From Maritimibacter harenae (GTDB lineage Bacteria > Pseudomonadota > Alphaproteobacteria > Rhodobacterales > Rhodobacteraceae), in contig NZ_WTUX01000010.1 of assembly GCF_009882975.1 (NCBI RefSeq), positions 1 to 58,597 of the forward strand: DNA of 58,597 nucleotides, read 5' to 3'. A program made the position numbers and the translations under genes. Below are positions 13,461 to 30,070 of the stretch, in pieces. The notes under the pieces were generated by a model that did not search any database, was not told the origin of the DNA, and saw nothing but the letters and a program-made list of their open reading frames with translations. Each line of letters begins with the position of its first letter. Position 1 is the stretch's first letter.

Positions 13461-13550
13461 GTGGATCTCCATTTTGGCGCGGAGACTAGGCGGGGGCGGG
13501 CCGAGGTGCAACGCCAGCGGGTGAATTGCGGTCGTGGCGTCAGCTCCCCC

Positions 13551-13580: not shown

Positions 13581-13609
13581 CTTCCGTTCATTGGAGATGA
13601 AACTCGTGT

Positions 13610-14113
13610 TCAGGCGCGCCCGTAGGCCTCTGCCAGTGCCACCTGCATGGCGCTCTCGACGCTCTGGTCGCCCCAGTTGACCAGCTGGAAAGCCGGGTAG
13701 AAGCGTTCGCAGTTCTGCACCGACGCGGCGATCAGCCGACCCAGCTGCTCGGCCCCCGCCGTCAGCCCGCCGGCCAGGATCAGGCCGTAGCGGAACACCA
13801 TCAGGCGCTGTTCGTGCCAGTAGGTGAAGGCGCCGTCCCAGATCATGTCGTTTGTGGCGTTGAGCGCCTCGAAGAGCTTGGGCAGCTTGTCTTCGGGCGG
13901 GTCCATTTCGAAGGTGCAGATCAGCCGGAGCGTTTCGTCATAGGGGCTCCAGGCCAGCGTGATCGAGTAGGTGCGCCACTGCCCCTCGACCGCCATCGCG
14001 ATCTGGTCGTCGGCCACGCGGTCGAAATCCCAGGCGTGGTGCTCGGCAAGGGTTTCGACGATGTCTATGGGGTGAAGGTCTTCGGATTCGAAGTAATGCT
14101 CGGTCGCCGCCAT
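13610..14113 (-). CDS. YbjN domain-containing protein
   Basis: The 167-residue protein matches the YbjN family, which shares the fold of type III secretion chaperones and bacterial sensory proteins. Seen here are HPIDIVETLAEHHAWDFDRVADDQIAMAVEG near the start, LRLICTFEMDPPEDKLPKLFEALNATND in the middle and the aromatic helix-strand AFTYWHEQRLMVFRYGLIL. In E. coli YbjN affects motility and stress responses; the function in alphaproteobacteria is unknown. The 280-nt region upstream contains a perfect 9-bp inverted repeat close to the start. Confidence 0.88.
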   Translation of the reverse strand: MAATEHYFESEDLHPIDIVETLAEHHAWDFDRVADDQIAMAVEGQWRTYSITLAWSPYDETLRLICTFEMDPPEDKLPKLFEALNATNDMIWDGAFTYWHEQRLMVFRYGLILAGGLTAGAEQLGRLIAASVQNCERFYPAFQLVNWGDQSVESAMQVALAEAYGRA

Positions 14114-14138
14114 TGGCTTGCCCCTTCTGCTCGGTGCA

Positions 14139-14166
14139 GCCTTTGCGGATGCAGAAACGCAAAGGC
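14139..14166 (-). promoter_or_regulatory. Inverted repeat in the YbjN gene leader
   Basis: GCCTTTGCG and CGCAAAGGC form a perfect 9-bp inverted repeat with a 10-nt centre, 26 nt before the YbjN start. It may be a leader hairpin or an operator. The rest of the 280-nt gap (14114-14392) holds an AT-richer stretch, a smaller inverted repeat (14280-14298) and no credible gene on either strand. Confidence 0.45.
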
Positions 14167-14392
14167 TTGTTGCCTGTACCGGGTGTGGCGTCTTGTGCGC
14201 CCGTCCCTACTAGATATCGTGTGATATTCATTGACTCCTGTAAAGGAGAAAGTCGTAATTCCGGTTTTTCGCAGCGAATCGAGTCGCTTGAGGACTCGCG
14301 ACTTGCACTATTCATACATTTTTCCCGCATTTTCCGGGTTTTAGGGTCTCGGAAACGGGCCGATGAAGGGGCAGATGCTGTGCTGCGGAATG

Positions 14393-15994
14393 TTACCCGG
14401 CGCGGATCATGTCGGCGGCCTTCTCGGCGATCATCACGGTCGGCGAGGCGGTGTTTCCCGACGTGATGGTCGGCATCACACCCGCATCCACGACCCGCAG
14501 CCCGTCCATGCCGTGCACCTTCAGGTCCGGACCCACGACCGCCATCGGGTCGGTTCCCATCTTGGTGGTGCCCACCGGGTGGAAGATGGTCGAGGCGATG
14601 TCGCCCACCGCCCGCAACAGGTCCGCGTCCGTGGCGCAATCGGGACCGGGGAGGAATTCCGCGGGCTCGTAACGCGCCATCGCGGGCATCTTCATCATCG
14701 CCCGCGCCTGCTGCACGGCCTTGACCGCCACCAGCTTGTCCTTCTCGGCGGAGAGATAGTTCAACCGGATGTCGGGCTGTTCGCCGGGGTCGGTGGAGCG
14801 CAGGTGCGACGTGCCGCGGCTTTCGGGCCGCAGGTTGCAGACGGACACGGTGATGCCGGGGAACGGGTGGAGCGGATCGCCCAGCTTGTCGGTGGTGAGC
14901 GGCTGGACGTGGTATTCCAGGTCCGGGGTCGCCACGCTGTCGTCCGAGCGCGTGAAGATACCAAGCTGCGAGGGCGCCATCGCCAGCGGTCCTGATCGCA
15001 TCAACGCGTATTCCAGCCCGATGCGTGCCTTTCCGAAGAGCGAATTGGTGAGCTGGTTGAGTGTCTTCGCCCCGGTCACGCGGTAGGCGGTGCGGATCTG
15101 CAAGTGGTCCTGGAGGTTCTTGCCGACACCGGGCAGGGCATGGGCCACGTCGATGCCGAACCCGCCCAGCACATCGGGGTCGCCGATCCCGGAAAGCTCC
15201 ATCAGCTTCGGCGAATTGAGCGATCCGGCGGCCAGCAGCACCTCGCGCTCGGCGCGCGCCTCGAAGGGGGTGCCGTTCACGGACCAGGCGACGCCGGCGG
15301 CCCGGCGCCCGTCGAGGATCAGCCGCTCGGCCAGTGCGCCTGTGACCACGCGCAGGTTCCCCCGCTTCTCGGCCGGGCGCAGGAATCCCTTGGCGGTCGA
15401 CCAGCGCACCCCGTTGTGCTGGTTCACGTCGAAGAAGCCGACGCCCTCGTTGATCCCGTCGTTGAAGTCCGGCGAAAACGGGATGCCGAACTGGATCGCG
15501 GCTTCCTGTACCGCCTCCAGAACCTCCCATTTCAGGCGCTGCTTCTGCACCTTCCAGGCGCCGCCGGTCCCGTGCAGGTCGCTGTCGCCGCCGTGGTAAT
15601 CCTCGCTCTTGAGGAAATAGGGGAGCACGTCGTCCCACCCCCAGCCGGTATTGCCCAACTGGCGCCAGTGATCGTAGTCGGCCGATTGGCCGCGCATGTA
15701 GATCATGCCGTTGATCGAGCTGCACCCGCCCACCACCTTCCCGCGCGGGTAGGCGAGGCTGCGGCCGTTCAGCCCGGGCTCTTGCGCCGTCTTCATCATC
15801 CAGTCGGTGCGCGGGTTGCCCATCGTGTAGAGGTATCCGACCGGCACGTGGATCCACGGGTAGGTGTCGCGCCCCCCGGCCTCGAGCAGCAGTACGCGTG
15901 TCGCAGGATCTTCGGTCAGCCGGTTGGCCAGAACGCAGCCGGCCGTGCCCGCGCCCACGATGATGTAATCCCAGGTGCCGTCGATCCCTGCCAT
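14393..15994 (-). CDS. GMC-family FAD-dependent oxidoreductase (choline dehydrogenase-like)
   Basis: The 533-residue flavoenzyme has the ADP-binding motif DYIIVGAGTAGCVLANRL near the start, GMC signature 1 GKVVGGCSSINGMIYMRG, GMC signature 2 in GSLNSPKLMELSGIG and the C-terminal HPVGTTKMG and DAGVMPTITSGNTASPTVMIAEKAADMI with the catalytic His/Asn region. Family members oxidise alcohols such as choline; the substrate here is not determined and no betaine aldehyde dehydrogenase lies next to it. It stands alone, divergent from the LytTR gene. Confidence 0.93.
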   Translation of the reverse strand: MAGIDGTWDYIIVGAGTAGCVLANRLTEDPATRVLLLEAGGRDTYPWIHVPVGYLYTMGNPRTDWMMKTAQEPGLNGRSLAYPRGKVVGGCSSINGMIYMRGQSADYDHWRQLGNTGWGWDDVLPYFLKSEDYHGGDSDLHGTGGAWKVQKQRLKWEVLEAVQEAAIQFGIPFSPDFNDGINEGVGFFDVNQHNGVRWSTAKGFLRPAEKRGNLRVVTGALAERLILDGRRAAGVAWSVNGTPFEARAEREVLLAAGSLNSPKLMELSGIGDPDVLGGFGIDVAHALPGVGKNLQDHLQIRTAYRVTGAKTLNQLTNSLFGKARIGLEYALMRSGPLAMAPSQLGIFTRSDDSVATPDLEYHVQPLTTDKLGDPLHPFPGITVSVCNLRPESRGTSHLRSTDPGEQPDIRLNYLSAEKDKLVAVKAVQQARAMMKMPAMARYEPAEFLPGPDCATDADLLRAVGDIASTIFHPVGTTKMGTDPMAVVGPDLKVHGMDGLRVVDAGVMPTITSGNTASPTVMIAEKAADMIRAG

Positions 15995-16092
15995 GCCCGC
16001 CTCCTCCGGATCCGCGCGCCGGCCCGGAAAAACCGGGCGTCGCGCACCATGATCATTTGCCTGCCCCGAAGTGATCGTCTAATTCAAGAGCC

Positions 16093-16866
16093 ATGAGGGT
16101 GGAGATCGGGCGGAAAGTTGCGGTGGTGCTGGTCCTGTTGGTCGTGGCGACGGTCAATGGACCGGTCGGCACGTTCGACAGCATGACGCTTCTGGAGCGG
16201 TTCATCTACTGGGGTCTGCTGCTGCCCGTCGTCTCGACCCTGATGATCGTGGGCATCCACTACGCGAACGACGGGCCGCACCTGCGCCGCCTTCATCCGC
16301 TCCTGCGCATCACGATCGGGGCGGTGGTCGCGGGCCTGCCGTCGGCGCTTTGGGTGATGACGCTCGGCGCGACGCTGCGCGGGTTCGAGTTCACGGCCTA
16401 CGGCGTCGGGTTCCGGTGGGTCATCGCCACGATCATGGGCATGGGCATCGGTGTGATCGAGGCCTACGTGCGCCCGCGCGATATCGAACGCCACATGCGC
16501 GAAAGGCTCGCCGACGCGACGCCGGAGCCGGCCCCCGAACCCGTGCGGGAAGACCCGCTCTTCATCCGCAACCTGTCGCCGGACCTGGGGCGCGAGATCA
16601 TCTCGATCTCGACGCGCGACCATTACCTCGACGTCGTCACGGCCGAGGGCAAGGACCGCATCCTCAAACGCATGTCCGACGCGGTGGCCGAGCTGAACGG
16701 CCTGCCCGGTCTGCAAATCCACCGCTCCCACTGGGTCGCGTTGGACGCCGTTGAACGGCTTGAGCGCGAGGGTCGCAAGGCGCGCGTGGTGCTCAAGAAC
16801 GGCGCGACGCTTCCCGTGAGCCGTCCCAACATTCCCGCTCTCGCCGAGGCGCTGGAAAAGCGCTGA
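16093..16866 (+). CDS. Membrane-anchored LytTR DNA-binding protein
   Basis: The 257-residue protein has about four hydrophobic helices in the first 140 residues, a Pro/Glu-rich linker (about 141-158) and a C-terminal LytTR domain (about 165-257: [63 protein letters not shown]). LytTR domains bind DNA in imperfect direct repeats. A regulator fixed in the membrane with no separate kinase is a one-component arrangement found in many Rhodobacterales. No clear Shine-Dalgarno precedes the ATG. Its targets are unknown; the divergent GMC gene is a candidate. Confidence 0.9.
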
Positions 16867-16918
16867 CCCCTCGACATGGGACCCGCACGTGCCTAGGTCG
16901 GGCGGGAAAGGACGCGTC

Positions 16919-17929
16919 ATGACACCCTACTCCATTCTCGATCTTGCCGCCGTGCCCGAAGGCTCGAACCCGGCCGATGCGATCGCAAATTCCGTCGACC
17001 TCGCCCAGCATGCCGAGCGGTGGGGCTACACCCGCTACTGGTTCGCCGAGCATCACAATTCCACCGGCATCGCCTCCGCCGCGACCTCGATCCTGATCGG
17101 GCATGTCACCGGCCAGACGGAGACGATCCGCGTCGGTGCGGGCGGCATCATGCTGCCCAACCACGCGCCCCTGATGGTGGCCGAGCAGTTCGGAACGCTG
17201 GCGACGCTCTACCCGGACCGGATCGACCTTGGCCTGGGCCGCGCGCCGGGCACCGACATGGCCACCGCGCGGGCGCTCCGCCGGATCATGAGCCAGGCGG
17301 ACACCTTCCCCGAGGACGTGGTCGAGCTGATGAACTATTTCGAGCCGATCACGCCGGAGACCCGGATCAAGGCGATCCCGGGCGCGGGCACCCGCGTGCC
17401 GGTCTGGATGCTTGGCTCGTCGCTCTTCGGGGCGCAACTGGCCGCGCACCTTGGACTGCCCTATGCCTTCGCGTCGCATTTCGCGCCCGATGCGCTGGAC
17501 GATGCCCTCCATGTCTATCGCTCGAGCTTCAAGCCGGGCCGGACCGAGGCGCCGCACTTCATGCTCGCCGTCAATGTCTTTGCCGCGGACACGAATGACG
17601 AGGCGCACCGGCTGCGCACCTCCATGCAGCAGGCCTTCCTGAACCTGCGCACCGGCAAGCCCGGCCCGCTGCCGCGCCCGGTCGACGACCTGTCCACGGT
17701 CGCATCGGCCGATCAGCTGGCGATGGTGAACCATGCGCTGCGCGTGAGCGTGGTAGGCGGCCCGAAAGAGGTCGAGGCCCAGTTCGAGCGGCTCATCGAA
17801 GCGTATCGTCCCGACGAGCTCATCCTGACCGGCATGATCCACGATCACGCCGCGCGCAGGCGGTCGTTCGAGATTGCGGCGGACCTCCTGTCCTCGCGCG
17901 CCGGGACGGCGGCGAGCGGCGCCGCCTAG
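16919..17929 (+). CDS. Luciferase-like flavin-dependent monooxygenase (LLM class, MsnO8 type)
   Basis: The 336-residue protein belongs to the bacterial luciferase-like oxidoreductases: [78 protein letters not shown] and [28 protein letters not shown] are the family core. Such enzymes use reduced FMN; the substrate is unknown. The ATG at 16919 follows GGGAAAGGA. Its stop codon shares the palindrome CTAG (17926-17929) with the stop of the converging thioesterase gene. Confidence 0.92.
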
Positions 17930-18339
17930 AGCGCGTCGATCATCTCGCGCAGGGGGGCGACGGGCAGGGCGGTCATCCGCCCGTCCCGCTCCCCGAAGAC
18001 CCCGCGGGTCTCGATCCCCTCGACCAGAATGCGCGTGCCGATCCGTCCCGTATAGGGCAGGGTGAGGCTGCGCCCGCTCCAGCGCGGCGCGCCCATCTCA
18101 AGCACGAAGCGATCGCCATCCGTGCCCGGTGAGCGGAAATCCGCATCGACATGCATCAACCCGATGCCCCGTGCCCCGAGTTGCGCGCACAGCCCCGCAT
18201 GGCCGCCCAGCCGGTCGAGCAGGAAGGTGTGGAAGCAGCGGTCGAACCACCTGAAATAATTGGGATAGAACACGATCCCGGCCGCGTCGCAGTGGCCGAA
18301 GCTGATCTGGATCTCGATCGAATGGAGCGGTGTGGTCAT
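17926..18339 (-). CDS. Acyl-CoA thioesterase, 4-hydroxybenzoyl-CoA thioesterase-like
   Basis: The 137-residue hotdog-fold protein has the motif [27 protein letters not shown], with the Asp that acts in the 4-hydroxybenzoyl-CoA thioesterase family. It likely hydrolyses an acyl- or aryl-CoA thioester; the substrate is unknown and no benzoate or 4-chlorobenzoate pathway is next to it. The ATG at 18339 was chosen because homology begins immediately after it. The gene converges with the monooxygenase gene and overlaps it by 4 nt. Confidence 0.88.
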
Positions 18340-18497
18340 CGGTCTGGTCCCCGGAAATTGCCGGCGGACCTGACGATATGGCGCGCAATTTGGCAACCGC
18401 TTTTCGGTCGCCGGCCGTTCGGTTGCGCTCGTGCGATTTAGGATGCCATATGCTGCGGGAGCGAAAAAGCGGGTGGCCGATGCGGCGAGAGACCGAA

Positions 18498-20300
18498 ATG
18501 ACAGGCGAAACCGTCCCCGACCCGGCCCTCGAGGCCGACCTGCGCACCATCCAGCCTTTGATCCTGCCCGGCGGCATCGGCGGCGCGGACGAACGGCTGT
18601 TCCTGCGCCTGTCGGGGGGCGCCACGGTCAAGGCCGAGGCGGGCGAGATCGCCCTGCCGTCGGGCGCGCGCGCGACCACCGACACGTTCTCCAACGTGTT
18701 CCCCGCTGGCAAGTGGATCGACCAATGCGCGCTTTCGTCGCTCTATCTCGACATGCGCGGCGAAGGCACCGTCGCGCTGCGTGTCACCAGCGTCGATGAG
18801 CATGGCACGCGGAGCGTTCTGGTCGAGCGGGAAGTGCATCTCGCCGAGGGCGCGAGTGTCCAGGTGGACATTCCGCTCGAGCCCGTGTCGCGCCCCGTCG
18901 GTCTGCTCTACTGCGAGATCATGGCGCAGGACGGCCCCGCGCGCCTTTGGGCGCTCGATTGGGCCACGCATGACGCCCCGCGCCGGATGCCCACGATCCT
19001 CGCCGCCATGACCACGTTCGACCAGACCGAGGCGGCGCTGAATTCCGCCGAACGGTTCGAGGCCTTCGTGGAGCGTTCGCCGCTCAAGGGGTTGGTGAAG
19101 CTCCTGGTCGTGGACAACTCGAGCACGCTCGACCCGTTCGACCTGGCCCATGCCTCGGTCGTGCAGAGCGCGAACCTGGGCGGCTCCGGCGGTTTCTCTC
19201 GCGGTCTGCTGGAGGCCCGCGACCGCGGCTTCACGCATTGTATCTTCATGGATGACGACGCGCAGATCGACATGGCCATGCTCACGCGCGTCTGGGCGTT
19301 TCTTGCCTATGCGCGGGATCCGGGAACCGCGGTGTGTGGCGGCCTGATGCAAGGGCGTGCCGACCAGGTGATCTGGGAAAACGGGGCGATCTTCAAACGC
19401 GTCTGCCTGCCCGTATCCCGTGGTCTGGACGTCGCCGATTTCGACGACGTCATCCAGGCGGAGTACGACTCCTACCTGACGGAAACGCCGAGCTTCTACG
19501 GCGGCTGGTGGTTCTTCGCCTTTCCGACCGGCGATCTCGAACACTTTCCGTTCCCGTTCTTCGTGCGTGGCGACGACATCAGCTTCTCGCTGATGAACCG
19601 CTTCAACTTCGTCACCCTGCCGGGGGTCGTCTGCCAGCAGGACGTCGACTTCTTCGACAAGGAATCGCCGCGTGCACTCTACCTCGATGTTCGAAACCAC
19701 ATGGTGCAGCATCTGACCGCGCCCCAGCTGCTCGGGACCCGCGGACAGCTTTTCTGGATCATGCAGTTCTTCTTCTTTCGCAGCTTCTTCATGTTCGGCT
19801 ACGACAGCATCCACGCCATCGCTCTCGCCATGCGCGACGTGGTCACGGGACCAGAGCGTTTCCGGGATGCCGAGACCACGCTGGCCCGGTTCAAGGAGAT
19901 CGGGGGTTTCACCGAGGACGAGAAATGGGTGGACGAGGTGCCCCCGGCACGCAACGAGCGTGAATTGCCGAAGCTTGTACAGTACGCGCTGATCGCCACG
20001 CTGAACGGTCACCTGGTCCCGTTCTACGGCGCCTTCGCGCGCCACGCCGTGCTCGATGCCAAGCGGCGGGGGGCCACGCAGTACGCGATCGGGGCGAGCC
20101 GCGTGACCCTTGCCGCGACCGGCGGTGAGCGCTCCATGCACCTGAAGATGAACCGCCGCAAAGCGCTCTCTTCGGCCTTCGCCTTCTGGAGGGAAGCGGC
20201 CCGGCTGCTCATCCGTCACAAGGCAGTGTCGAAGAAATGGGAAGAGGGGTATCCGCGGCTGGCCTCGGAAGCGTACTGGCGCGACAAGCACGGTATGTGA
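18498..20300 (+). CDS. GT2-family glycosyltransferase resembling galactofuranosyltransferase GlfT2
   Basis: The roughly 600-residue protein has an N-terminal beta-rich region (about 1-170), a GT-A domain beginning near LVKLLVVDNSS with QSANLGGSGGFSRGLLEARDRGFTHCIFMDDDAQID (the metal-binding DDDA motif), SFYGGWWFFAFPTGDLEHFPFPFFVRGDDISFSLMNRF, and a helical C-terminal part. This layout matches mycobacterial GlfT2, which builds galactofuran from UDP-galactofuranose. Alternative starts lie at 18480 and 18450, the latter with a better AGGA spacing. It is followed after about 100 nt by an MMPL transporter and a secreted protein, suggesting a glycolipid or polysaccharide route. The acceptor is unknown. 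Confidence 0.85.
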   Translation: MTGETVPDPALEADLRTIQPLILPGGIGGADERLFLRLSGGATVKAEAGEIALPSGARATTDTFSNVFPAGKWIDQCALSSLYLDMRGEGTVALRVTSVDEHGTRSVLVEREVHLAEGASVQVDIPLEPVSRPVGLLYCEIMAQDGPARLWALDWATHDAPRRMPTILAAMTTFDQTEAALNSAERFEAFVERSPLKGLVKLLVVDNSSTLDPFDLAHASVVQSANLGGSGGFSRGLLEARDRGFTHCIFMDDDAQIDMAMLTRVWAFLAYARDPGTAVCGGLMQGRADQVIWENGAIFKRVCLPVSRGLDVADFDDVIQAEYDSYLTETPSFYGGWWFFAFPTGDLEHFPFPFFVRGDDISFSLMNRFNFVTLPGVVCQQDVDFFDKESPRALYLDVRNHMVQHLTAPQLLGTRGQLFWIMQFFFFRSFFMFGYDSIHAIALAMRDVVTGPERFRDAETTLARFKEIGGFTEDEKWVDEVPPARNERELPKLVQYALIATLNGHLVPFYGAFARHAVLDAKRRGATQYAIGASRVTLAATGGERSMHLKMNRRKALSSAFAFWREAARLLIRHKAVSKKWEEGYPRLASEAYWRDKHGM

Positions 20301-20402
20301 TCCTTGCGTGCATGAGGCCGGGGCCGATATGAGTGTCGCGATCGGCTCGGCAGGTGACATGCACAGGACAACGCCCCTTTCCCAGCACCGGACAAGGCCC
20401 TG

Positions 20403-22619
20403 ATGAGGCGACCCACGTCTTTCGCCCGGGCGCAGGTGCGCGTTCTCGGGGCGATCCGGCGGCGCCTGGCGTGGTTCTGGCTTGTGCTCGCCGCGCTGGT
20501 CCTCGTGGCGGCCACCGGCATTCCGCGCGTTACCTTCGACACCGCCCTCATTCGCTTCTTCGAAGGCGATGTGGCGGCCTTTCGCACCTATGACGACGTG
20601 ACCAACCGGTTCGAGGGGGACGCCAACGACGTGGTGGTCCTGCTCGAGGCCGGGTCCCTGGCCGACCCGGCCGCGCTCGAGGCGGTGTCGAGCTTCCTTC
20701 TGGAAGCGCAGTTCATCGACGGTGTGCGCGCGGTCTGGTCGCCGCTCTCCTTCGAGATCACCGGGCCGGAGGGCGTGCGAGAGCCTCTCGTCCCGTTCCC
20801 GATCCCGGACGCCGAAACGATGTCCGCGCGTATCGACGCGGTGCGGGCCGAGACCCCGGCGCTGCGCCGCCTCATGTCCGAAGGCAAGGACGCGATGCTC
20901 GCGGTGCTGCCGATCACCGGGAACGAGGCGGGGCAGGAGGCCACGCTCAAGGCCCTCACCGACCTGGCCGCGCGCGTGTCGGGCGATGCGGTGTCGGTCC
21001 GTGTCGCAGGCTACCCGGCACTTCGGGCGCGGGTGTCCGAGGGGCTGATGACGGACGTGATCGCGCTCAACCTCGCCGGTGCGCTGATCGGGTTCGCCGT
21101 GGCAGCGCTGGCGTTGCGCAGCGTACGGCTGGGGCTTCTGACGCTTCCGGGGCCGCTGATCGCGCTCATGCTGTCCATCGGCCTCTTCGGGCATGCGGGT
21201 CTGGCGATCACGACCGTGACGCTGACGCTGCCCGTGCTGGCGATGATCCTTGCCACCATCGACTCCATCCACATCCTGTTCGAACGGCTCCACCAGGGCG
21301 CACGCACGCCCCGCGCCGCGGCGCTGCGCGCGGTGCGGCGGATGGCTCCGGCCTGCCTGGCGGCGACCGTGACGACGGCCTTGGCCTTCGCGGTCTTCGC
21401 GGCGTCGCCCGTCGAAGTGATCGCCGAACTGGGGCGTATGGGGGCGGTCATCCTGGTCGTGAGCACGCTCACCGTCATGCTGACCCAGAGCCTCGTCCTG
21501 TCGGTGGCGGGCGCGCGTCCCTCGATCCGGACAGCCTTCGCGCGTCTGAACGCCCGTCCGCCGCGGGGTGGCCCTTTCGCCCGCTTGCCGCGGCTGGCGC
21601 TGGCGCGCCCCCGGCTGGTGACGCTGGGCGCGCTGGGCCTTCTCGTCCTTGGCGCCGGGCTCTACGGGCAAGCGGGGCCGCGGTATTCACCGCTGGACAG
21701 TCTCGGTCCGGCCGACCCTTTGCGCGCCACGTTCGAGCGGATCGAAACGGCGGTCGCGCCCATCTCGATGATGCAGGTCGCGGTGACAGATGCCACGCCC
21801 GAGGTGCTGGCCGAGGTCGAGCGCACCATCGCCGAGGCGTCCGGAAGCGCGTTGGTGCAATCCATCGCCTCCATCACGGGCGAGGCGGCGGATGCTCGCG
21901 ACACCCTGCCCGAGGCGATCCTTGCGCGGCTCGTCTCGGCGGATGAAAGCCGCGCCCTCGTCACCCTGCCGTTCCACTACGACAGCGGGGCGGGGGCGAT
22001 TGCGCTGGCCGACAATATCGACGCGGCCTTGGCCGGGAACCCGGCGCTCGCGGCCGTCGAAATCAGTCCCGTCACGGGGCTTCCCGTGATGGCGGCCCGC
22101 GTCGTGGGCGGGGTGCTGTCCGATCTTCAGACCGGGCTTCTCATCGCGGTCGCGGCGGTCGGTGGGCTCATCGCGCTCTGGGCGCGCTCCGTCGTCGTGG
22201 CGCTGGTCGCGCTGGTGCCCAACGTCCTGCCGGTGGCCCTGATCGGCGGCGGGCTCGCGCTGTCGGGGCAGGGGATCGGGTTGGCCGGAGGCCTCGCCCT
22301 GACCGTGGCCTTCGGGGTCGCGGTCGACGATACGCTCCACGTGCTCAACCGCATCCGGCTGGGCGGCGGGTTCCGGGGACTGGATCGCCCGCGGCTCGGG
22401 GCCGCGATGTCGGAGGCGACACCGGCGCTGGTGACCACCTCTGCGCTCCTGGTGCTGGGCTTCGGCGGGTCCGCCTTCGCCGCGACGCAGGAAGTCGCGG
22501 CCTTCGGGGCCACCGCCACCGGCATATTCGTGCTCGCGCTCCTCTCGGACCTCCTGGTGCTGCCCGCCGTGGTTGCTTTCCTCGGGCCGCGTTTCTACCG
22601 TGCTTCCCCGAAAGGATAG
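20403..22619 (+). CDS. MMPL/RND-superfamily transporter
   Basis: The 738-residue membrane protein has the duplicated RND plan: one helix (about 22-38), a large periplasmic loop, a five-helix bundle (about 215-365), another helix (about 415-432), a second loop and a second bundle. LPVLAMILATIDSIHILFERLHQG and ALTVAFGVAVDDTLHVLNRIR are the matching helix-4 motifs with the acidic residue expected for proton coupling. Relatives such as MmpL3 and HpnN move lipids or glycolipids rather than drugs. No membrane-fusion or outer-membrane partner lies next to it. A secreted protein starts 2 nt after its stop. Confidence 0.9.
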   Translation: MRRPTSFARAQVRVLGAIRRRLAWFWLVLAALVLVAATGIPRVTFDTALIRFFEGDVAAFRTYDDVTNRFEGDANDVVVLLEAGSLADPAALEAVSSFLLEAQFIDGVRAVWSPLSFEITGPEGVREPLVPFPIPDAETMSARIDAVRAETPALRRLMSEGKDAMLAVLPITGNEAGQEATLKALTDLAARVSGDAVSVRVAGYPALRARVSEGLMTDVIALNLAGALIGFAVAALALRSVRLGLLTLPGPLIALMLSIGLFGHAGLAITTVTLTLPVLAMILATIDSIHILFERLHQGARTPRAAALRAVRRMAPACLAATVTTALAFAVFAASPVEVIAELGRMGAVILVVSTLTVMLTQSLVLSVAGARPSIRTAFARLNARPPRGGPFARLPRLALARPRLVTLGALGLLVLGAGLYGQAGPRYSPLDSLGPADPLRATFERIETAVAPISMMQVAVTDATPEVLAEVERTIAEASGSALVQSIASITGEAADARDTLPEAILARLVSADESRALVTLPFHYDSGAGAIALADNIDAALAGNPALAAVEISPVTGLPVMAARVVGGVLSDLQTGLLIAVAAVGGLIALWARSVVVALVALVPNVLPVALIGGGLALSGQGIGLAGGLALTVAFGVAVDDTLHVLNRIRLGGGFRGLDRPRLGAAMSEATPALVTTSALLVLGFGGSAFAATQEVAAFGATATGIFVLALLSDLLVLPAVVAFLGPRFYRASPKG

Positions 22620-22621
22620 TC

Positions 22622-23128
22622 ATGATCCCCGCACGCATCGCCTTCGCCGCACTTCTTGTCGCCACGGCTCACCCCGCGGCAGCGATCGACCTTTTCACGG
22701 CCCAGGGCGGCTGGACCGGGACCGGAAGTCTCGCGACTTCGGTCGAGCGGCGGATGCAGCCCGCCCGGTGCCAGGTGGACGTGAAACCCACTGACGCGGG
22801 CGGAGACGTGAGCGTGACCGGCAAGTGTGCCGTGGCCGTCGGTGCGTCCAACATCTCGTTCCGGCTGGTCAGGGGCGACGGGCGCGCCGTGCGCGGTGCG
22901 ATGTGGTCCGAGGCCACCGACGAGATCCTGCAACTGGCCGGCGCGCGTACCGAGACCGGCGTCGACATGACCGCGACCGAGCCGTGGGTGGTCGATGGCG
23001 TCGACTACGAGACGCGCGTCATCGTGCGCGAACCGGACGCGGGGAGCTTCAAGATCCAGCAACTGGCCCGCATGGAAGGCGAAAAGGCGTGGCGGGTGAT
23101 CGTCGACATGACGTATCGTCAGCCATGA
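22622..23128 (+). CDS. Secreted protein of unknown function, partner of the MMPL transporter
   Basis: The 168-residue protein has a clear signal peptide (about 1-21, ending HPAAA), and the rest is predicted to be mostly beta-strand (GGWTGTGSLATSVERRMQPARCQVDVKP, VSVTGKCAVAVGASNISFRLV, AWRVIVDMTY). Two cysteines (in ARCQVD and GKCAV) could form a disulfide. I do not recognise the family; the alternating pattern would fit a calycin-like barrel, which is only a guess. The ATG is 2 nt after the transporter stop, so the two are translated together and the protein probably acts in the periplasm with it. Confidence 0.8.
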   Translation: MIPARIAFAALLVATAHPAAAIDLFTAQGGWTGTGSLATSVERRMQPARCQVDVKPTDAGGDVSVTGKCAVAVGASNISFRLVRGDGRAVRGAMWSEATDEILQLAGARTETGVDMTATEPWVVDGVDYETRVIVREPDAGSFKIQQLARMEGEKAWRVIVDMTYRQP

Positions 23129-23218
23129 CGCGGCGTCCGCGCCGGCACGCGCGATGCATCCGACCGGCCGCGGGGGCCGTAACGAGGACCGAAGATCAAC
23201 GTGGCGACGGCGGAGCAC

Positions 23219-24367
23219 ATGACCGGGGAACATGACGCGCTTTTCGTGGGCGGCGGGCTTGCGAGCTGCCTGTGCGCCCTGCGGCTCTGCGCGGCCCGGC
23301 CGGGCATCCGCATCGCGATCATCGAAGCGGGCCCGGAAATCTGCGGCAACCATACGTGGTCGTTTCACGCCCCCGACGTGAGCCGCGACGCGTTCGACTG
23401 GCTCGCCCCGCTGGCCAGCCACCGCTGGGACAGCCAACAGGTCATCTTTCCTTCCTACACCCGCGCGCTCGACACGCCCTACCTTTCGCTGACGTCCGAG
23501 GGCCTGCGCGCCGCGGTCGAGGAGACACCGGGGATCGAGATCTTCGCCGGGCGCAAGGTCACGCAGATGACGCGGGACCGTGTGACGCTGGACGACGGCA
23601 CGACGCTCGCAGCGCCCTGCATCTTCGACGGGCGGGGTTTCATGCCCAGCCCTGCCTCGGAGCTGGGGTTCCAGAAATTCCTGGGCCTCGAGGTGGAGCT
23701 CGCCGCGCCCCACGGGCTCGAGGCGCCGGTGATCATGGATGCGACCGTGCCGCAGCGCGACGGCTATTGCTTCATCTACCTGCTGCCCTTCGCCCCCGAC
23801 CGGCTGTTGATCGAAGAGACCTATTATTCCGACGACCAGGACCTCGCCCCGCAACGGCTGGAGTCGAACATCCGCGGCTATGCCGAGGCGCGGGGCTGGG
23901 ACATCCGGCGCGTGGTGCGCCGCGAGCAGGGGGTCCTGCCGATCGCGCTGTCGCTGGACGCCCCGGCCCTCTGGCGCGACATGGTCACGGACGCGGTGCC
24001 CATCGGCCTGCGCGCGCACCTGTTCCACCCGGTCACGGGCTACAGCCTGCCGGTGGCGGTGGCGACGGCCGAACGGATCGCGGCGCACGATGGTCCGCTC
24101 ACGACTGCGGCGCTGCGTCGCGTGCTGGAGGACCAGGTGATCTCGTCGGGCCGGCACAACGTATTCTACAGGTTCCTGAACAGGATGCTCTTCCGCGCCG
24201 CGAAGCCGGAAAAACGTTTCCTCGTGATGGAGCGCTTCTACGGCCTCGGCGCGGGTCTGATCGAACGGTTCTATGCCGGACGGCTGACGCTCCGCGACAA
24301 GGCGCGCATACTGGCCGGCAAGCCGCCGGTCCCGATTACGAAAGCCCTGGGGTGTATTCGTGAATAG
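23219..24367 (+). CDS. crtY: Lycopene beta-cyclase
   Basis: CrtY closes both beta-ionone rings on lycopene to give beta-carotene. The 382-residue protein has the flavin motif ALFVGGGLASCLCALRL, HTWSFHAPD, LGFQKFLGLEVELAAPHGLEAPVIMDATVPQRDGYCFIYLLPF, GVLPIALSLDA and HPVTGYSLPVAVATAE, all as I recall from Paracoccus CrtY. ATG 23219 matches the family N-terminus; a GTG six codons upstream is an alternative. It overlaps crtI by 8 nt, starting the crtY-crtI-crtB operon. Confidence 0.95.
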   Translation: MTGEHDALFVGGGLASCLCALRLCAARPGIRIAIIEAGPEICGNHTWSFHAPDVSRDAFDWLAPLASHRWDSQQVIFPSYTRALDTPYLSLTSEGLRAAVEETPGIEIFAGRKVTQMTRDRVTLDDGTTLAAPCIFDGRGFMPSPASELGFQKFLGLEVELAAPHGLEAPVIMDATVPQRDGYCFIYLLPFAPDRLLIEETYYSDDQDLAPQRLESNIRGYAEARGWDIRRVVRREQGVLPIALSLDAPALWRDMVTDAVPIGLRAHLFHPVTGYSLPVAVATAERIAAHDGPLTTAALRRVLEDQVISSGRHNVFYRFLNRMLFRAAKPEKRFLVMERFYGLGAGLIERFYAGRLTLRDKARILAGKPPVPITKALGCIRE

Positions 24368-25889
24368 ACACGTGAGTACGAACGACATGCAAGCGACCGG
24401 AAGCCGGGCCATCGTGATCGGCGCGGGGTTCGGCGGGCTCGCCCTGGCCATCCGCCTGCAGAGCGCCGGGATCTCCACCACGATCCTCGAGAAGCGCGAC
24501 AAGCCGGGCGGGCGCGCCTATGTCTACGAGAAGGACGGGTTCACCTTCGACGGCGGCCCCACGGTGATCACCGATCCCGACGCCCTGCGCGAGCTCTGGG
24601 ACCTGTCGGGCCGGTCGATCGACGATTACGTGACGCTGATGCCCGTTTCGCCATTCTACCAGTTGTGCTGGGAGGACGGGACGCGCTTCGATTACGTCAA
24701 CGACCAGGATGAGCTCGCCCGCCAGATCGAGGCGCTCTCGCCCCGTGACGTGGCCGGATACGAGCGTTTCATGAAGTATTCCGAGGACGTCTACCGCGAA
24801 GGCTACCTCAAGCTCGGCACCGTGCCCTTCCTCGACTTCAAGAGCATGATGAAGGCGGCCCCCCAGCTGGTGCGCGTGGGCGCCTATCGCAGCGTCTACT
24901 CCAAGGTCGCCTCGTTCATCGAGAACGACTACCTGCGCCAGGCGTTCTCGTTCCACACGCTGCTGGTGGGCGGCAACCCGTTCGACACGTCGTCGATCTA
25001 CGCTCTGATCCACGCGCTGGAGCGGCGCGGGGGCGTGTGGTGGGCCAAGGGCGGCACCGGCGCGCTGGTCAAAGGCATGGTCAAGCTGTTCGAGGACCTG
25101 GGCGGCACGATCCGCACCTCGGCGGAGGTCGAGCAGCTGATCACCGCGGGCGACCGGATCACCGGGGTCCGGGTCGCGGGCGAGGTGCTGGAGGCCGATC
25201 TCGTCGCCTCGAACGGGGACGTGGTGCACACCTACGACAAGCTCCTGGGCGGCACGCGGCGCGGCAAATCCTATGCGAAGGCGCTGAAACGCAAGCGCTT
25301 CTCCATGTCGCTCTTCGTCACCTACTTCGGGCTCAAGGGGAAGCCCGAGAACCTGCGCCACCACATGATCTTGTTCGGCAATCGCTACCGCGGGCTGATC
25401 GACGACATCTTCAAGACGGACAAGCTGTCCGATGATTTCTCGCTCTACCTGCATGCGCCGTCGGTGACCGATCCCACCCTCGCGCCGGAGGGGCACAGCA
25501 CCTACTACGTGCTCTCCCCGGTCCCGCACCTTGGCACGGCCGACATCGACTGGGAGGCGGAGGCACCGCGCTACCGCGACCGGATCTTCGACTATCTCGA
25601 AAAGCACCACATCCCGGACCTGCGCAAGCGGCTCGTGACGTCGCACATGCTGACGCCGCACGGCTTCCGCGATGATCTGAATTCGCACCTCGGCTCGGCC
25701 TTCTCGGTGGAGCCGATCCTGACCCAGTCCGCGTGGTTCCGCCCGCACAACCGCGATGACGTCATCCGCAACCTCTACATCGTCGGGGCAGGCACGCATC
25801 CCGGCGCGGGCATCCCCGGCGTGGTCGGGTCGGCCAAGGCGACCGCCGGGCTGATGATCGAACACGCCCGCGCGGAGGCCCCGGCATGA
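24360..25889 (+). CDS. crtI: Phytoene desaturase
   Basis: CrtI introduces four double bonds into phytoene to make lycopene. The 509-residue flavoenzyme has AIVIGAGFGGLALAIRLQSAGI with the dinucleotide motif at 21-26, GGRAYVYEKDGFTFDGGPTVITDP, AFSFHTLLVGGNPFDTSSIYALIHALERRGGVWWAKGG and the C-terminal bacterial desaturase signature around YIVGAGTHPGAGIPGVVGSAKA. The usual start would be near residue 17 (AIVIGAG); the gene is assigned from GTG 24360, with GTG 24372 and ATG 24387 as alternatives. The stop overlaps crtB by 4 nt. Confidence 0.96.
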   Translation: MNRHVSTNDMQATGSRAIVIGAGFGGLALAIRLQSAGISTTILEKRDKPGGRAYVYEKDGFTFDGGPTVITDPDALRELWDLSGRSIDDYVTLMPVSPFYQLCWEDGTRFDYVNDQDELARQIEALSPRDVAGYERFMKYSEDVYREGYLKLGTVPFLDFKSMMKAAPQLVRVGAYRSVYSKVASFIENDYLRQAFSFHTLLVGGNPFDTSSIYALIHALERRGGVWWAKGGTGALVKGMVKLFEDLGGTIRTSAEVEQLITAGDRITGVRVAGEVLEADLVASNGDVVHTYDKLLGGTRRGKSYAKALKRKRFSMSLFVTYFGLKGKPENLRHHMILFGNRYRGLIDDIFKTDKLSDDFSLYLHAPSVTDPTLAPEGHSTYYVLSPVPHLGTADIDWEAEAPRYRDRIFDYLEKHHIPDLRKRLVTSHMLTPHGFRDDLNSHLGSAFSVEPILTQSAWFRPHNRDDVIRNLYIVGAGTHPGAGIPGVVGSAKATAGLMIEHARAEAPA

Positions 25890-26845
25890 GGGTCCATGCC
25901 GCAGACGCGACGGAGCTCGTCCAGTTCGGCGAGCAGTCCATCGCGCGCGGCTCGAAGAGCTTCGGCATGGCGGCGACCCTGTTCAAGCCGCAGGTGCGCG
26001 CCGACGTGGTGATGCTCTACGCCTGGTGCCGCCATGCCGACGACCTGATCGACGGGCAGGCCTTCGGCCATGACCAGGATCCCGCTTTCCGCAAGGGCCA
26101 GCACGGGCGGCTCGAGGATCTGAAGCGCCGCACCGCCGCCGTGCTGAACGGCGAACGCATCGGCGACCCGGCCTTCGACGGGCTCGGCGAAGTGGTGCGC
26201 GGCAACGACATTCCGCACCGGCTGCCCGAGGACCTGATCACCGGGTTCGAGATGGACGTGAGCGAGCGCGACTATCCCACGCTCACCGACACGCTGACCT
26301 ATTGCTACCACGTGGCCGGGGATGTTGGCGTGATGATGGCGATGGTGATGGGCGCGCGGCGCGCGGACGTGCTCGACCGGGCCTGCGACCTGGGCATCGC
26401 GTTCCAGCTCACCAACATCGCGCGCGACGTGATGGACGACGCGCACGCGGGGCGCCGCTACGTGCCAGCCGATCTCCTGGCGCGCCGCGGCCTGACGCCC
26501 GATGATTACGACGCGCCGGAGAACCGTGCGACGCTCTTCGCCGTGGTCTGCGACATGCTGGACGAGGCGGACCGGTATTATGCCTCGGCCCAGTGGGGGC
26601 TGTCGGAGCTCGATTGGCGATCGGCCTGGGCCATCGCCTCGGCCGCGCGGGTCTACCGCGCTATCGGTGAGAAGCTGCGCCGGGGCGGGCCGGGGGCCTG
26701 GGAGCGGCGCATCGCCACCGGCCTCGGCGCCAAGGTCTGGCTCATCACGCTGGCTTTGGGGGACACGATCGGATCACGGTTCCGGAGCGTCGACGACGCG
26801 CCCGCGCGGCGTGGTCTCTACACGCGGCCGACGGTTCCGTCCTGA
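25886..26845 (+). CDS. crtB: Phytoene synthase
   Basis: CrtB condenses two geranylgeranyl diphosphates to phytoene. The 319-residue protein has the first Asp-rich motif in YAWCRHADDLIDG (52-56), the second in GIAFQLTNIARDVMDDAHAGRRYVP, and the typical SKSFGMAATLF segment. It overlaps crtI by 4 nt (ATGA). Its 3' end overlaps the converging crtZ gene by 28 nt. The GGPP synthase gene crtE is not in the window. Confidence 0.95.
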   Translation: MRVHAADATELVQFGEQSIARGSKSFGMAATLFKPQVRADVVMLYAWCRHADDLIDGQAFGHDQDPAFRKGQHGRLEDLKRRTAAVLNGERIGDPAFDGLGEVVRGNDIPHRLPEDLITGFEMDVSERDYPTLTDTLTYCYHVAGDVGVMMAMVMGARRADVLDRACDLGIAFQLTNIARDVMDDAHAGRRYVPADLLARRGLTPDDYDAPENRATLFAVVCDMLDEADRYYASAQWGLSELDWRSAWAIASAARVYRAIGEKLRRGGPGAWERRIATGLGAKVWLITLALGDTIGSRFRSVDDAPARRGLYTRPTVPS

Positions 26846-27363
26846 TTGACCGCCGCGGCGTCCTCGGACTCGTACATCTCCAGAGCCATTCTTTCGCGGT
26901 TCTTCTTCAGGTCCGCCTTCAGCCGGTCGATCGGCGGCGCCCAGATGAAGCCGAAGGAGACGCAGCCGTCGCGCCCCTTCACGGCGTGATGCAGCCGGTG
27001 AGCCTGGTAGACGCGCTTGAGGTAGCCGTTCTTGGGCACGTATTTGAACGGCCAGCGGTGATGCACCAGCCCGTCGTGCGCCATGAAGTAGAGCGCGCCG
27101 TAGATCGTCACGCCGAGCGCGATCCAGAAGAGCCCCGCCCAGAGCCAGAGCGACAGCGCGAAGAGGAAGATCGCGGTGACCGAGCCGACGACGGCGTAGA
27201 GGTCGTTCTTCTCCAGCCCGCCCTCGTGGGGCACGTGGTGGCTTTCATGCCAGCCCCAGCCCCAGCCGTGCATGATGTACTTGTGCGACCACCACGCCAC
27301 GAACTCCATCGCCGCCACTGTGGCGACGACGATCAGGATCGGCACGATCACGGCTTCGAACAT
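26818..27363 (-). CDS. crtZ: Beta-carotene 3-hydroxylase
   Basis: CrtZ hydroxylates both rings of beta-carotene to zeaxanthin and is a non-heme di-iron membrane enzyme. The 181-residue protein has all the histidine boxes: HKYIMH (27-32), HESHH (39-43), HDGLVHHRW and HRLHH, with hydrophobic helices between them. It is transcribed toward crtB and overlaps it by 28 nt, so read-through from either side would make antisense RNA over the other end. No ketolase gene (crtW) is in the window, so zeaxanthin or a derivative is the expected product. Confidence 0.95.
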   Translation of the reverse strand: MFEAVIVPILIVVATVAAMEFVAWWSHKYIMHGWGWGWHESHHVPHEGGLEKNDLYAVVGSVTAIFLFALSLWLWAGLFWIALGVTIYGALYFMAHDGLVHHRWPFKYVPKNGYLKRVYQAHRLHHAVKGRDGCVSFGFIWAPPIDRLKADLKKNRERMALEMYESEDAAAVNQDGTVGRV

Positions 27364-27599: not shown

Positions 27600-28340
27600 T
27601 CAGAACAGCCCGCCGTAGATCAGGCGGACGGCCAGCACGAAGAGGATGAACAGGATCACCCATTCGAAAGCCTGCCGGGGCATCCGCGCGCCGATCCAGC
27701 TGCCGAGCGGCATCGACAGCAGAAGCGGGATCAGGGCGAGCCCGCTGTAGAGGAACCGCTCCGGGGTCATGATCCCGAAGGCCATCTGTGCGGGCAATTG
27801 CACGACGCCCAGGGCCACGAAGAAGAGCGACACCGTGCCCATGAAGTCCTCGCGCTCCAGCCGTAGCGCGCCGAGGAAGGTGAGCGACACCGGGGCGGAC
27901 AGCCCTGTCGCCCCCTGGAGCGCGCCGGCGAGGATGCCGGCCGGTGCGGCGAGGAGCCGCCCGGTGTTCATCCTGAGCGTCCAGCCCGGTTTGAAGGCGC
28001 GAAAGAGGATGTAGGCGACCATGACGAAGCCGACGGTGAGCAGCAGAAGATCCGGCTTCCATCCGGCCAGCGCGATCGTGCCGAGCCCTGCGCCCACGCC
28101 GCCCGCGATCGCGAAGGTCGCCGCGAAGCGGGGCGCGGAAAGCTGTCTCCGGTAGGCCCAGGCCTGGATCACGTTGGGTACGATGTTGGGCAGCACGAAG
28201 ACCGCGACCGCGAACTGCATGTCGCGCGTGAGCGCCATCAGCGGCACCGCCAGAAGCGGCGCACCCGCGCCGACCGCGCCCTTGAGCACGCCCCCCGCCG
28301 CGAAGGCGAGAACGATCAGGATAATGTCAGAAATGTCCAA
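27600..28340 (-). CDS. TauE/SafE-family membrane permease
   Basis: The 246-residue protein has about seven or eight hydrophobic helices and the family pattern LAFAAGGVLKGAVGAGAPLLAVPLMAL near the start and the repeated motif LLAAPAGILAGALQGATGLSAPVSLTFL in the second half. Family members export sulfite, sulfoacetate or other organic anions. It is 30 nt after a dienelactone hydrolase gene and downstream of a TRAP transporter, all in the same direction. Its substrate is not known. Confidence 0.9.
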   Translation of the reverse strand: MDISDIILIVLAFAAGGVLKGAVGAGAPLLAVPLMALTRDMQFAVAVFVLPNIVPNVIQAWAYRRQLSAPRFAATFAIAGGVGAGLGTIALAGWKPDLLLLTVGFVMVAYILFRAFKPGWTLRMNTGRLLAAPAGILAGALQGATGLSAPVSLTFLGALRLEREDFMGTVSLFFVALGVVQLPAQMAFGIMTPERFLYSGLALIPLLLSMPLGSWIGARMPRQAFEWVILFILFVLAVRLIYGGLF

Positions 28341-28370
28341 TGTGTCGTGCCTGCCCGTGCCCGTTCTCGA

Positions 28371-29027
28371 TCAGCCGAGGTGCTTGGCGAAGAAGGCGAG
28401 CGTCCGTTCGTGGGCCAGCGCCGCGGCCTCCGGCACATAGCTCGGACGGGCATCGTTGGCAAACGCATGCCCTGCCTCGTACATGTGCATCTCCATCTCC
28501 GGGAGATACTCCTGCGCCTCGTCCAGCATCTCCTTGGGCGTATGGTCGTCCTTGGTGCCGAAATGCCCGAGGAGCGGCGCCTTGAGCGGACTGTCGAGGT
28601 ATTGGGGCAGCCGCGTGCCGTAGAAGGCGACGGCGGCGTCGACGTCGAGCTTCTGGGCCGCGCGCAGCGCCAGCCCGCCGCCCCAGCAGAACCCCATCAC
28701 GCCGACCTTGTGGCCCTTGGCCTTGAGCGCCTGCACGGCAGCATCCGTGTCCATCATGGTCTCTTCCAGGTCGGCCGCCAGCATCAGGTCGCGCCCCTTG
28801 GGCCCCTCGTCGAAGGGAATGACCGCGCCCGGCTGCTGTCGGTCGAAGAGCGCCGGGATCGCCACGTCGTAGCCCTGTGCCGCATACATCTGCGCGACGC
28901 CCTTGAGCTGGTCGGTGACGCCGAAGATTTCCTGCAGGATCACGATGCCGCCCTTGGCCGTGCCCTCGGCGGGCTGCATCCAGCAATCGAGTTGATGGCC
29001 GTCGGAGGCCGTGAGCTTCTCCATCAT
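28371..29027 (-). CDS. Dienelactone hydrolase family protein
   Basis: The 218-residue alpha/beta hydrolase has the Cys nucleophile of dienelactone hydrolases (Cys114 in GVMGFCWGGGLAL), an acid in GTKDDHTP (160-161), His187 in AGHAFAND, and the conserved Glu in VILQEIFGV. Members hydrolyse dienelactone in chlorocatechol breakdown, but many act on other esters or thioesters, so the substrate is open. There is an ATG pair; the first, at 29027, has AGGA nine nt upstream. It lies between the TRAP binding-protein gene and the TauE gene. Confidence 0.9.
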   Translation of the reverse strand: MMEKLTASDGHQLDCWMQPAEGTAKGGIVILQEIFGVTDQLKGVAQMYAAQGYDVAIPALFDRQQPGAVIPFDEGPKGRDLMLAADLEETMMDTDAAVQALKAKGHKVGVMGFCWGGGLALRAAQKLDVDAAVAFYGTRLPQYLDSPLKAPLLGHFGTKDDHTPKEMLDEAQEYLPEMEMHMYEAGHAFANDARPSYVPEAAALAHERTLAFFAKHLG

Positions 29028-29059
29028 GGGAAATATCCTGAAATCTGGTGGGGGAAGGG

Positions 29060-29089
29060 GGGCGGCGCGGCCCAGGGGCCGCGCCGCCC
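29060..29089 (-). promoter_or_regulatory. Very stable intercistronic stem-loop after the TRAP binding-protein gene
   Basis: A perfect 13-bp G+C-only stem (29060-29072 with 29077-29089, 4-nt loop) begins 6 nt after the binding-protein stop. No T-run follows, so it likely protects the upstream mRNA or partly terminates, favouring the binding protein over the hydrolase and TauE permease. Confidence 0.75.
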
Positions 29090-29095
29090 GCGATA

Positions 29096-30070
29096 TCATT
29101 CGCCGACGGGGATGCCCGCCTCTTCGTAGTAGCGCAGCGCGCCAGGGTGGTAGGGCGTCGCGTTCGCGGGCGCCATGTCCTGGGCATTCGCGCGGTTGAA
29201 CGCCCCGAACGAGGCCGCGAGCGCCTCCTTGTTCTCGGCGATGGCCTTGGTCATGTCGTAGACGAGCTGCTCGTCCACGTCGCCGTTGCTCATCAGGATC
29301 CACGGGATCTGCATCAGGTTGGCGCCGTAGTTCTGGAGTCCGTTGATGTCGTCGTTCTGGCCCAGCGACACGATGTTGCCCGCCGGCAGGAATTCCTTGA
29401 ACGCCGCCTCGCCTTCCTCGGAATCATCGAGCGAGATGTAGCACAGCCCGCCGCGGTCCTGCAGCTTGACCGCCGCCTGCTGCCCTGCGCCGGAGTTGAG
29501 GCTTACCAGCGCCACGTCGACCAGTTCGTCACCCAGCGCGTTGATCCCGGCGACGAAGCTCGCGACCGGCACCTTCTGGAAGTCGTCGTAGGTGAGACCG
29601 GCATTGGCCAGCCCGCCGCGGATGTAGAACGGGATGATCGTCGAGGACGTGTATTCCGACGCGATGCGCAGGTCGCCGGCCTGTTCCTTGAGGTCCGCCA
29701 CGGTTTCGAGCCCCAGGTCGCAGGGCGCCATGATCGAGGTGGTCAGCGGGAACATCACGCCGACCATGCGGATGTTGGGATGCGCCCGGTCGTAGTTGCC
29801 GGTGCCTTCATAGGCATAGGCGACCTCGACCCCGTTGGAGAAGCCGAAGTCGACCTCGCCCGAGTTGACCAGCGGCAGGTAGCCCACCAGCGGCTGGGTG
29901 CGCGCGGTGATGCCCGCGTCGTTGGCGACCTTGGCCACGGCCTGGCCGGAGTTGTAGGCGAGCGATCCCTGCGCCCCGGTCGCGATCGTGACGACCTGCG
30001 CCACGGCGGCCCCGGCCGTCAGGGCGAGCGCGGCGGCCCCCGCGCCCAGCGTGCGTGTGATGATACTCAT
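29096..30070 (-). CDS. TAXI-family TRAP transporter substrate-binding protein
   Basis: The 324-residue exported protein has a signal peptide (about 1-27, ending GAAVAQ) and the TAXI pattern VVTIATGAQGSLAYNSGQAVAKVANDAG, then LVNSGEVDFGFSNGVEVAYAYEGTG and VMFPLTTSIMA. TAXI proteins bind solutes such as glutamate or 2-oxoglutarate-like acids, but most are uncharacterised. It starts inside the stop codon of the permease gene (4-nt overlap), so here the permease comes first. A strong stem-loop follows. Confidence 0.92.
   Translation of the reverse strand: MSIITRTLGAGAAALALTAGAAVAQVVTIATGAQGSLAYNSGQAVAKVANDAGITARTQPLVGYLPLVNSGEVDFGFSNGVEVAYAYEGTGNYDRAHPNIRMVGVMFPLTTSIMAPCDLGLETVADLKEQAGDLRIASEYTSSTIIPFYIRGGLANAGLTYDDFQKVPVASFVAGINALGDELVDVALVSLNSGAGQQAAVKLQDRGGLCYISLDDSEEGEAAFKEFLPAGNIVSLGQNDDINGLQNYGANLMQIPWILMSNGDVDEQLVYDMTKAIAENKEALAASFGAFNRANAQDMAPANATPYHPGALRYYEEAGIPVGE

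Follow-up and report, generated by a model that had tools for sequence, protein, structure and literature searches.

A glycosyltransferase, an MMPL transporter with its secreted partner and a zeaxanthin cluster as probably independent neighbours in Maritimibacter harenae

The stretch of Maritimibacter harenae DNA analysed here (contig NZ_WTUX01000010.1, 58,597 nt, hereafter the window; its own genome is G000) carries genes for a glycosyltransferase (GT), an MMPL transporter and a small secreted protein (SEC) directly before the genes for zeaxanthin synthesis. In our view, the site is a variable one at which GT, the MMPL–SEC pair and the crt genes probably form three independent modules rather than one pathway. 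The sequence-only reading had proposed a joint route in which a carotenoid or another membrane lipid is glycosylated and exported; this did not hold up, since GT, MMPL–SEC and crt stand apart in related genomes, which makes a shared pigment-glycosylation pathway unlikely. Rather than a carotenoid-glycosylation pathway, the locus points to two things: a small conserved pair of RND pump and secreted barrel, with a ligand open to direct test and with no model for the barrel in Pfam or NCBIfam, and a family of GlfT2 type that in Rhodobacterales goes with genes for surface polysaccharides. The modules would have become neighbours in this lineage through insertion and rearrangement between a 4HBT thioesterase gene and the stretch running from TauE-like to pqq-like genes.

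Across 295 genomes of the family, sampled mostly at one per genus, GT (E 1e-40) was found in 24, SEC (E 0.001) in 11 including G000, and a strong crtY in three, and the only genome in which these sets overlap is that of the window. Matches to crtY at E 0.001 occurred in 27/295 genomes, the strong ones being confined to G000, G023 and G150; in four further genomes the match is full-length at 27-29% identity, and the remaining ones share short stretches of the FAD-binding type. At class level, crtY reached E 1e-60 in nine of 385 genomes, G000 again included. None of the 10 other strong crtY loci (L109, L110 and L140-L147, with L141 spanning only 7.6 kb) contained a match to GT, MMPL or SEC at E 1e-4, and the four weak crtY loci (L111-L114) had none either. 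A single scan of genome contigs yielded 30 external GT loci of 4-22 kb each, one of them matched in part only and two (L028 and L034) being the same neighbourhood in one contig of a metagenome-assembled genome. These held neither MMPL nor SEC by tblastn and no close crt gene, the sole crt-like match being, in L038, an FAD oxidase (Pfam) of 24% identity. The loci of the 10 other SEC genomes (11-20 kb) gave no crt match at E 1e-6, and the same genomes gave no GT match at E 1e-40. Conserved co-occurrence had been set beforehand as the check on the joint pathway, with regular occurrence apart from crt genes as its refutation, and the genes do occur regularly without crt (30/30 GT loci and the 10 other SEC genomes), just as 10/10 other strong crtY loci lack GT, MMPL and SEC. 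We therefore reject a conserved GT–MMPL–SEC–crt unit, its modules lying apart in the GT, SEC and strong crtY loci of relatives.

GT itself (18498..20300, plus strand, with ATG at 18498 and the stop codon ending at 20300) is probably a surface-polysaccharide galactofuranosyltransferase of the GlfT2 type (GT2), belonging, as judged from its sequence and from the gene neighbours of its relatives, to a Rhodobacterales subfamily associated with such polymers. Its GlfT2-like layout and DDDA motif, spotted in the sequence-only reading, were borne out by full-length matching to solved galactofuranosyltransferases: in a phmmer search against PDB sequences, residues 9-599 of 600 align to 30-656 of the galactofuranosyltransferase 9dtp (E 1.4e-18), an alignment that takes in the N-terminal beta domain as well as the C-terminal domain, and GlfT2 (4fix) is matched at E 4e-14. 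The Pfam model Glft2_N matches weakly (E 2e-4; 21.6 bits, below the cut-off of 26.1). GT thereby shares with GlfT2 and its relatives (4fix; 9dtp, 9oa3) a near-full-length alignment, the DDD metal motif and the WW and DD motifs, which appear in the window protein as MDDDA, FYGGWW and RGDD. In an alignment comprising the window GT, a paralogue from its own genome and 29/30 external loci (the fragment L043 was dropped by clustering), DDDA, FYGGWW and FFVRGDD are kept in 29/29 external sequences. Pfam found no UDPGT match in GT, the domain of CrtX-type GT1 UDP-glycosyltransferases, and a role as carotenoid glycosyltransferase was rejected on family, context and motif evidence.

GT would add galactofuranose from UDP-galactofuranose (UDP-Galf) to a surface polysaccharide, and the neighbourhoods of its relatives are consistent with this. 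Clustering of neighbours over the 30 external loci placed a family with sulfotransferase likeness, c1, in 20/30 and UDP-galactopyranose mutase (GLF) in 19/30, together with KpsT-, KpsE- and KpsM-like capsule-export proteins in 17, 16 and 15 of them; the Kps names and the likeness of c1 come from reading the sequences, while a Pfam search of one member each bore out GLF and gave no match for c1. Mycobacterial GlfT2 genes stand with arabinogalactan genes, whereas the Rhodobacterales relatives of GT are found with glf and capsule-type genes. GT also turned up in 18 plasmid records, three of which were inspected: the annotated plasmid of Leisingera caerulea holds ABC exporter genes, sulfotransferases, glf and GT together, and those of Ponticoccus and Acetobacter carry other glycosyltransferases near GT, with a sulfotransferase in one of the two and no annotated glf in the inspected stretch of either. 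The single glf match in the window's genome lies on contig C63 beside an ABC-transporter locus, where no capsule reference protein matches the adjoining genes except for a 25% identical ABC ATPase; the product of such a glf, encoded elsewhere in the genome, would supply the UDP-Galf. The same genome has a second GlfT2-like GT (L044, G000:C50:372000-388000), which sits in an unusual cluster with polyketide synthase, aminotransferase, methyltransferase and Capsule_synth (KpsS-like) genes and keeps a His residue to which we return below.

MMPL (20403..22619, plus strand) and SEC (22622..23128, plus strand) are a real, conserved and uncharacterised export pair, with the pairing observed directly and the folds predicted from models built on shallow alignments (10 sequences for SEC and nine for MMPL). 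The assignment of the former as an RND/MMPL transporter, HAE3-like, was upheld by a Pfam MMPL match well above the cut-off (E 5e-22; 78.7 bits versus 20.5, in two stretches); TIGR00921 is matched at E 1e-29, below its own cut-off. Its AlphaFold model, with a mean predicted local distance difference test (pLDDT) of 86.5, adopts a predicted RND fold like those of lipid transporters, the best Foldseek matches being MmpL4 (E 1.9e-22), MmpL5, MmpL3 and HpnN, and its sequence found no match among solved structures at E 0.001. With the hopanoid transporter HpnN, MMPL would share the RND fold (5khn, Foldseek E 7e-19), but the match to TIGR03480 is local and far below the cut-off (25.6 bits versus 751.85), and identity with HpnN was rejected on this ground. 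MMPL may extract its cargo, a lipid or another hydrophobic molecule, from the inner membrane.

SEC, a protein of 168 aa with a signal peptide read from the sequence, has no match in Pfam or NCBIfam at E 0.001. A GxWxGxG motif and two cysteines, Cys50 and Cys69, are invariant in 10/10 aligned sequences, and the model (pLDDT 90.5) shows ten long strands and one of three residues, which leads us to predict a lipocalin/nitrobindin-like barrel. Its best PDB folds are OssO and nitrobindin (TMq 0.63-0.66, nitrobindin 0.66), none of them under a Foldseek E of 0.001, and its profile found no solved structure at E 1. The only His of SEC is residue 17, within the signal peptide, so SEC is not an obvious haem protein, and the haem-binding role of nitrobindin is unlikely for it, the His that would serve as haem ligand being absent after the signal peptide.

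SEC travels with MMPL, and the periplasmic carrier suggested by the sequence-only reading is a plausible role for it: the barrel may take over the MMPL cargo in the periplasm. In 9/10 other SEC genomes, the gene lies directly behind an MMPL homologue on the same strand, often with overlapping ends, while the tenth match (G186, L052, E 9.8e-4) lies opposite a long open reading frame (ORF) that only weakly resembles MMPL, and is probably spurious. The MMPL homologues are 35-45% identical in three of these genomes (L045-L047) and 26-29% in six. No plasmid carried SEC at E 0.01, and a class-wide profile search added two weak places only (L155 and L156), both in one 8-Mb alphaproteobacterial genome. 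Distant SEC-like secreted proteins are encoded there at 9197-9796 of L155, which had no MMPL match, and at 9455-10087 of L156, where an MMPL homologue lies about 2 kb away on the opposite strand and squalene-synthase-like ORFs can be made out by eye.

The contexts of the pair vary. In L045 (6369-17016), genes for an Rrf2 protein, MMPL and SEC are followed by those for a sigma factor, a ChrR-type cupin, fasciclin, an SDR, a DUF1365 protein, an FAD oxidase and CMAS, a set resembling the chrR and furan-fatty-acid genes of Rhodobacter sphaeroides (PMC7380195). In L051 (7278-11122), MMPL, SEC and a FadL/TodX-type outer-membrane protein gene stand in a row on one strand, which suggests an envelope-crossing set, and in L054 a fasciclin gene is found nearby. 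Neighbours tested in the remaining loci were housekeeping, regulatory or transport genes or had no match.

The third module comprises crtY (lycopene beta-cyclase, 23219..24367, plus strand, with an alternative GTG start at 23201), crtI (phytoene desaturase, 24360..25889, plus strand), crtB (phytoene synthase, 25886..26845, plus strand) and, converging on the latter, crtZ (beta-carotene hydroxylase, 26818..27363, minus strand), so that the zeaxanthin set is present together in the window. The first two score above their NCBIfam cut-offs (TIGR01789, 453 bits versus 215; TIGR02734, 712 bits versus 238), crtB is a clear SQS_PSY member (Pfam, E 1e-63) below its NCBIfam equivalog cut-off (NF042419, 334 bits versus 480), and the sole family match of crtZ is FA_hydroxylase (Pfam, E 3e-12). 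A plasmid of Paracoccus yeei (NZ_CP044079, one of 108 plasmid records with crtY) has the same crtY-crtI-crtB order and converging crtZ. However, it carries a glycosyltransferase gene directly before crtY, where the window has MMPL–SEC, and a polyprenyl synthetase gene beyond crtZ, where the window has a TauE-like gene. In G023 (L109), the order is crtZ-crtX-crtY-I-B. The glycosyltransferases directly before crtY in these two clusters differ from GT and are CrtX by reading, the one in G023 with a Pfam UDPGT match. CrtX yields the zeaxanthin glucosides of Pantoea, and ketocarotenoid glucosides are made by Paracoccus (PMC3111180). At E 0.001, the window's genome has no match to the CrtX-like protein of G023; in one genus mate, a partial match to it (31%) contains a stop. 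The crt genes of the window form a zeaxanthin cluster of the standard Paracoccus type with no neighbouring crtX, and zeaxanthin would be made without CrtX glucosylation.

Comparison within the genus places the block in a rearranged stretch, at a site that differs in congeners. Among eight genomes, MMPL (E 1e-60) and crtY (E 1e-10) were each found in one, the window's own. The left flank (12645..17929) encodes proC, YbjN and GMC, named by reading, and LytTR and luciferase-like monooxygenase genes, named by Pfam; four of these recur, with their order kept, in the loci of 7/7 mates and GMC in 6/7 (not L127). Past the monooxygenase gene, the block proteins had no match at E 1e-8 at the mates' site, with L128 ending about 140 bases after that gene and hence being uninformative. 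The 4HBT thioesterase gene (17926..18396, minus strand, Pfam 4HBT), the last one before the block that is common with a congener, was seen at the site in G229 only (L125, 72% identical) and not in the other six loci. In G229, a fused FAD-monooxygenase/AMP-binding protein (L125, 6242-9070) is encoded divergently from the 4HBT gene, where G000 has the GT block. On the right, a pair of TauE-like and dienelactone-hydrolase-like genes, so named by reading (27600..29303, minus strand), is matched at the DNA level (77%, across both genes) by G297:C26, with the left flank of G297 lying on another contig; in G229 it has two separate matches on C4, 2-2.7 Mb from the left flank. Further on, pqq-like and prolyl-iminopeptidase-like genes, again by reading, occupy 33136-36245, and this stretch matches G297 and G229 on contigs other than the left flank's, which indicates a rearrangement point between about 29 and 33 kb. 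To this right side, the other five mates gave only weaker matches, mostly of ABC or LysR size.

Several observations weigh against three independent modules as described above. GT, MMPL and SEC all run towards crtY, and the gaps do not exceed about 100 nt (102 nt between GT and MMPL, 2 nt between MMPL and SEC, and 72 or 90 nt between SEC and crtY, depending on the crtY start), and the terminator scan predicted none inside these gaps. That scan ran at chance level, with five sites versus a shuffle mean of 4.2, as did the counts of a promoter scan, so that co-transcription is neither shown nor excluded, and the caution of the sequence-only reading on this point stands, as do the gene positions, order, directions and converging crtZ that it gave, all ORFs of the block being open as it described. 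The GC content at third codon positions is 0.84-0.93 in the block and 0.83-0.91 in the flanks; composition shows no sign of recent foreign import and does not date the arrival. GT and SEC were searched genome-wide in one genus mate (G229) and at the site in the others. One of the three closest relatives of the pair, L045, lies in a photo-oxidative setting of sigma factor and ChrR, and actinobacterial crtR/crt loci, for which mmpl and a putative lipocalin gene are named (PMC5401885), mean that an MMPL gene beside crt need not be chance. Lastly, the His of the own-genome paralogue (C50:379351) is Gln in the window GT and 28/29 external loci and Gly in one. In GlfT2, that His is a metal ligand. 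Unlike GlfT2 (4fix), GT has no His at the aligned place, and phmmer aligns the His of 9dtp with an adjacent Asp. With the residue missing across the whole subfamily, its loss sets the subfamily apart from GlfT2 proper, not the window GT from its relatives, and GT looks intact for a subfamily that departs from GlfT2 at this position. A defence-system role was also considered, and PADLOC gave no match at E 0.001.

To our knowledge, the route of carotenoids to the Gram-negative outer membrane is poorly understood. One alternative is that the zeaxanthin operon has acquired MMPL–SEC as a carrier that takes zeaxanthin, or a photoprotective lipid, to the outer membrane, with GT as a bystander; we consider this unlikely, though with an appreciable chance of being right. 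The pair runs in the same direction as crtY, 72-90 nt before it, SEC is predicted to form a lipocalin-like barrel and lacks His outside its signal peptide, MMPL is predicted to fold like lipid transporters, and relatives of the pair stand at a sigma factor–ChrR locus (L045) or before a FadL-type outer-membrane protein gene (L051). There are precedents as well. An RND transporter and a periplasmic carrier are known beside the pigment genes of aryl-polyene clusters, where they are ApeM (RND) with ApeL (LolA-like) and ApeN (LolB-like) (PMC8253772); here, a lipocalin/nitrobindin-like barrel is predicted for the carrier instead, and the link with pigment genes is not conserved. In Corynebacterium glutamicum, the RND gene cg0722 is co-transcribed with crtE and crtB (crtE-cg0722-crtB), and one figure of actinobacterial crtR/crt loci names mmpl and a putative lipocalin (PMC5401885). 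The mmpL1 gene of Mycobacterium kansasii is light-induced with the crt genes, but a pigment screen gave no mmpL1 insertions, for which the authors also name redundancy or unseen mislocalisation as reasons (PMC9861118). What these loci share with the window is an RND/MMPL gene that lies within a carotenoid operon or next to it, and a figure of such loci names a putative lipocalin gene (PMC5401885, PMC9861118); they belong to another phylum, however, the association was seen here only once, and of the two models HAE3 and actII MMPL, the former gives the window MMPL the higher score. Recruitment is further opposed by the loci of the 10 other SEC genomes, which lack crt genes, and by the 0/10 other strong crtY loci with MMPL or SEC.

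These RND–pigment precedents keep alive, at a small probability, a broader form of the idea: in Rhodobacterales, MMPL–SEC would serve specifically to move photoprotective lipids from the inner to the outer membrane, as an RND pump with a lipocalin-like periplasmic shuttle. In this species it would have been set before the zeaxanthin operon so that the outer membrane is loaded with pigment, and it would be a proteobacterial counterpart of the actinobacterial mmpl/lipocalin crt genes. We found no paper on MMPL in outer-membrane carotenoid transport with a glycosyltransferase, on a galactofuranosyltransferase in Rhodobacterales or on MMPL plus lipocalin in Rhodobacter, which does not prove that none exists.

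Set against independent modules, it is also rather improbable that GT and MMPL–SEC cooperate on an envelope lipid that carries galactofuranose and has nothing to do with carotenoids. MMPL proteins elsewhere do export glycolipids, and GT and MMPL are adjacent and co-directional across their 102-nt gap, but MMPL or SEC is present in 0/30 external GT loci, and the 10 other SEC genomes have no GT at the threshold used above. The least probable reading, for which we see very little chance, is that the whole set forms one pathway, with GT glycosylating zeaxanthin or a lipid and MMPL–SEC exporting the product: the genes are contiguous and share a direction, the genome lacks a match to the CrtX-like protein of G023, and the glycosyltransferases of P. 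yeei and G023 lie upstream of crtY on the same strand, as GT does at a greater distance, yet GT shares no other genome among the 295 with strong crtY or SEC, its family keeps company with glf and capsule-type genes, and the CrtX-like protein belongs to a different fold family (UDPGT) than GT (GlfT2).

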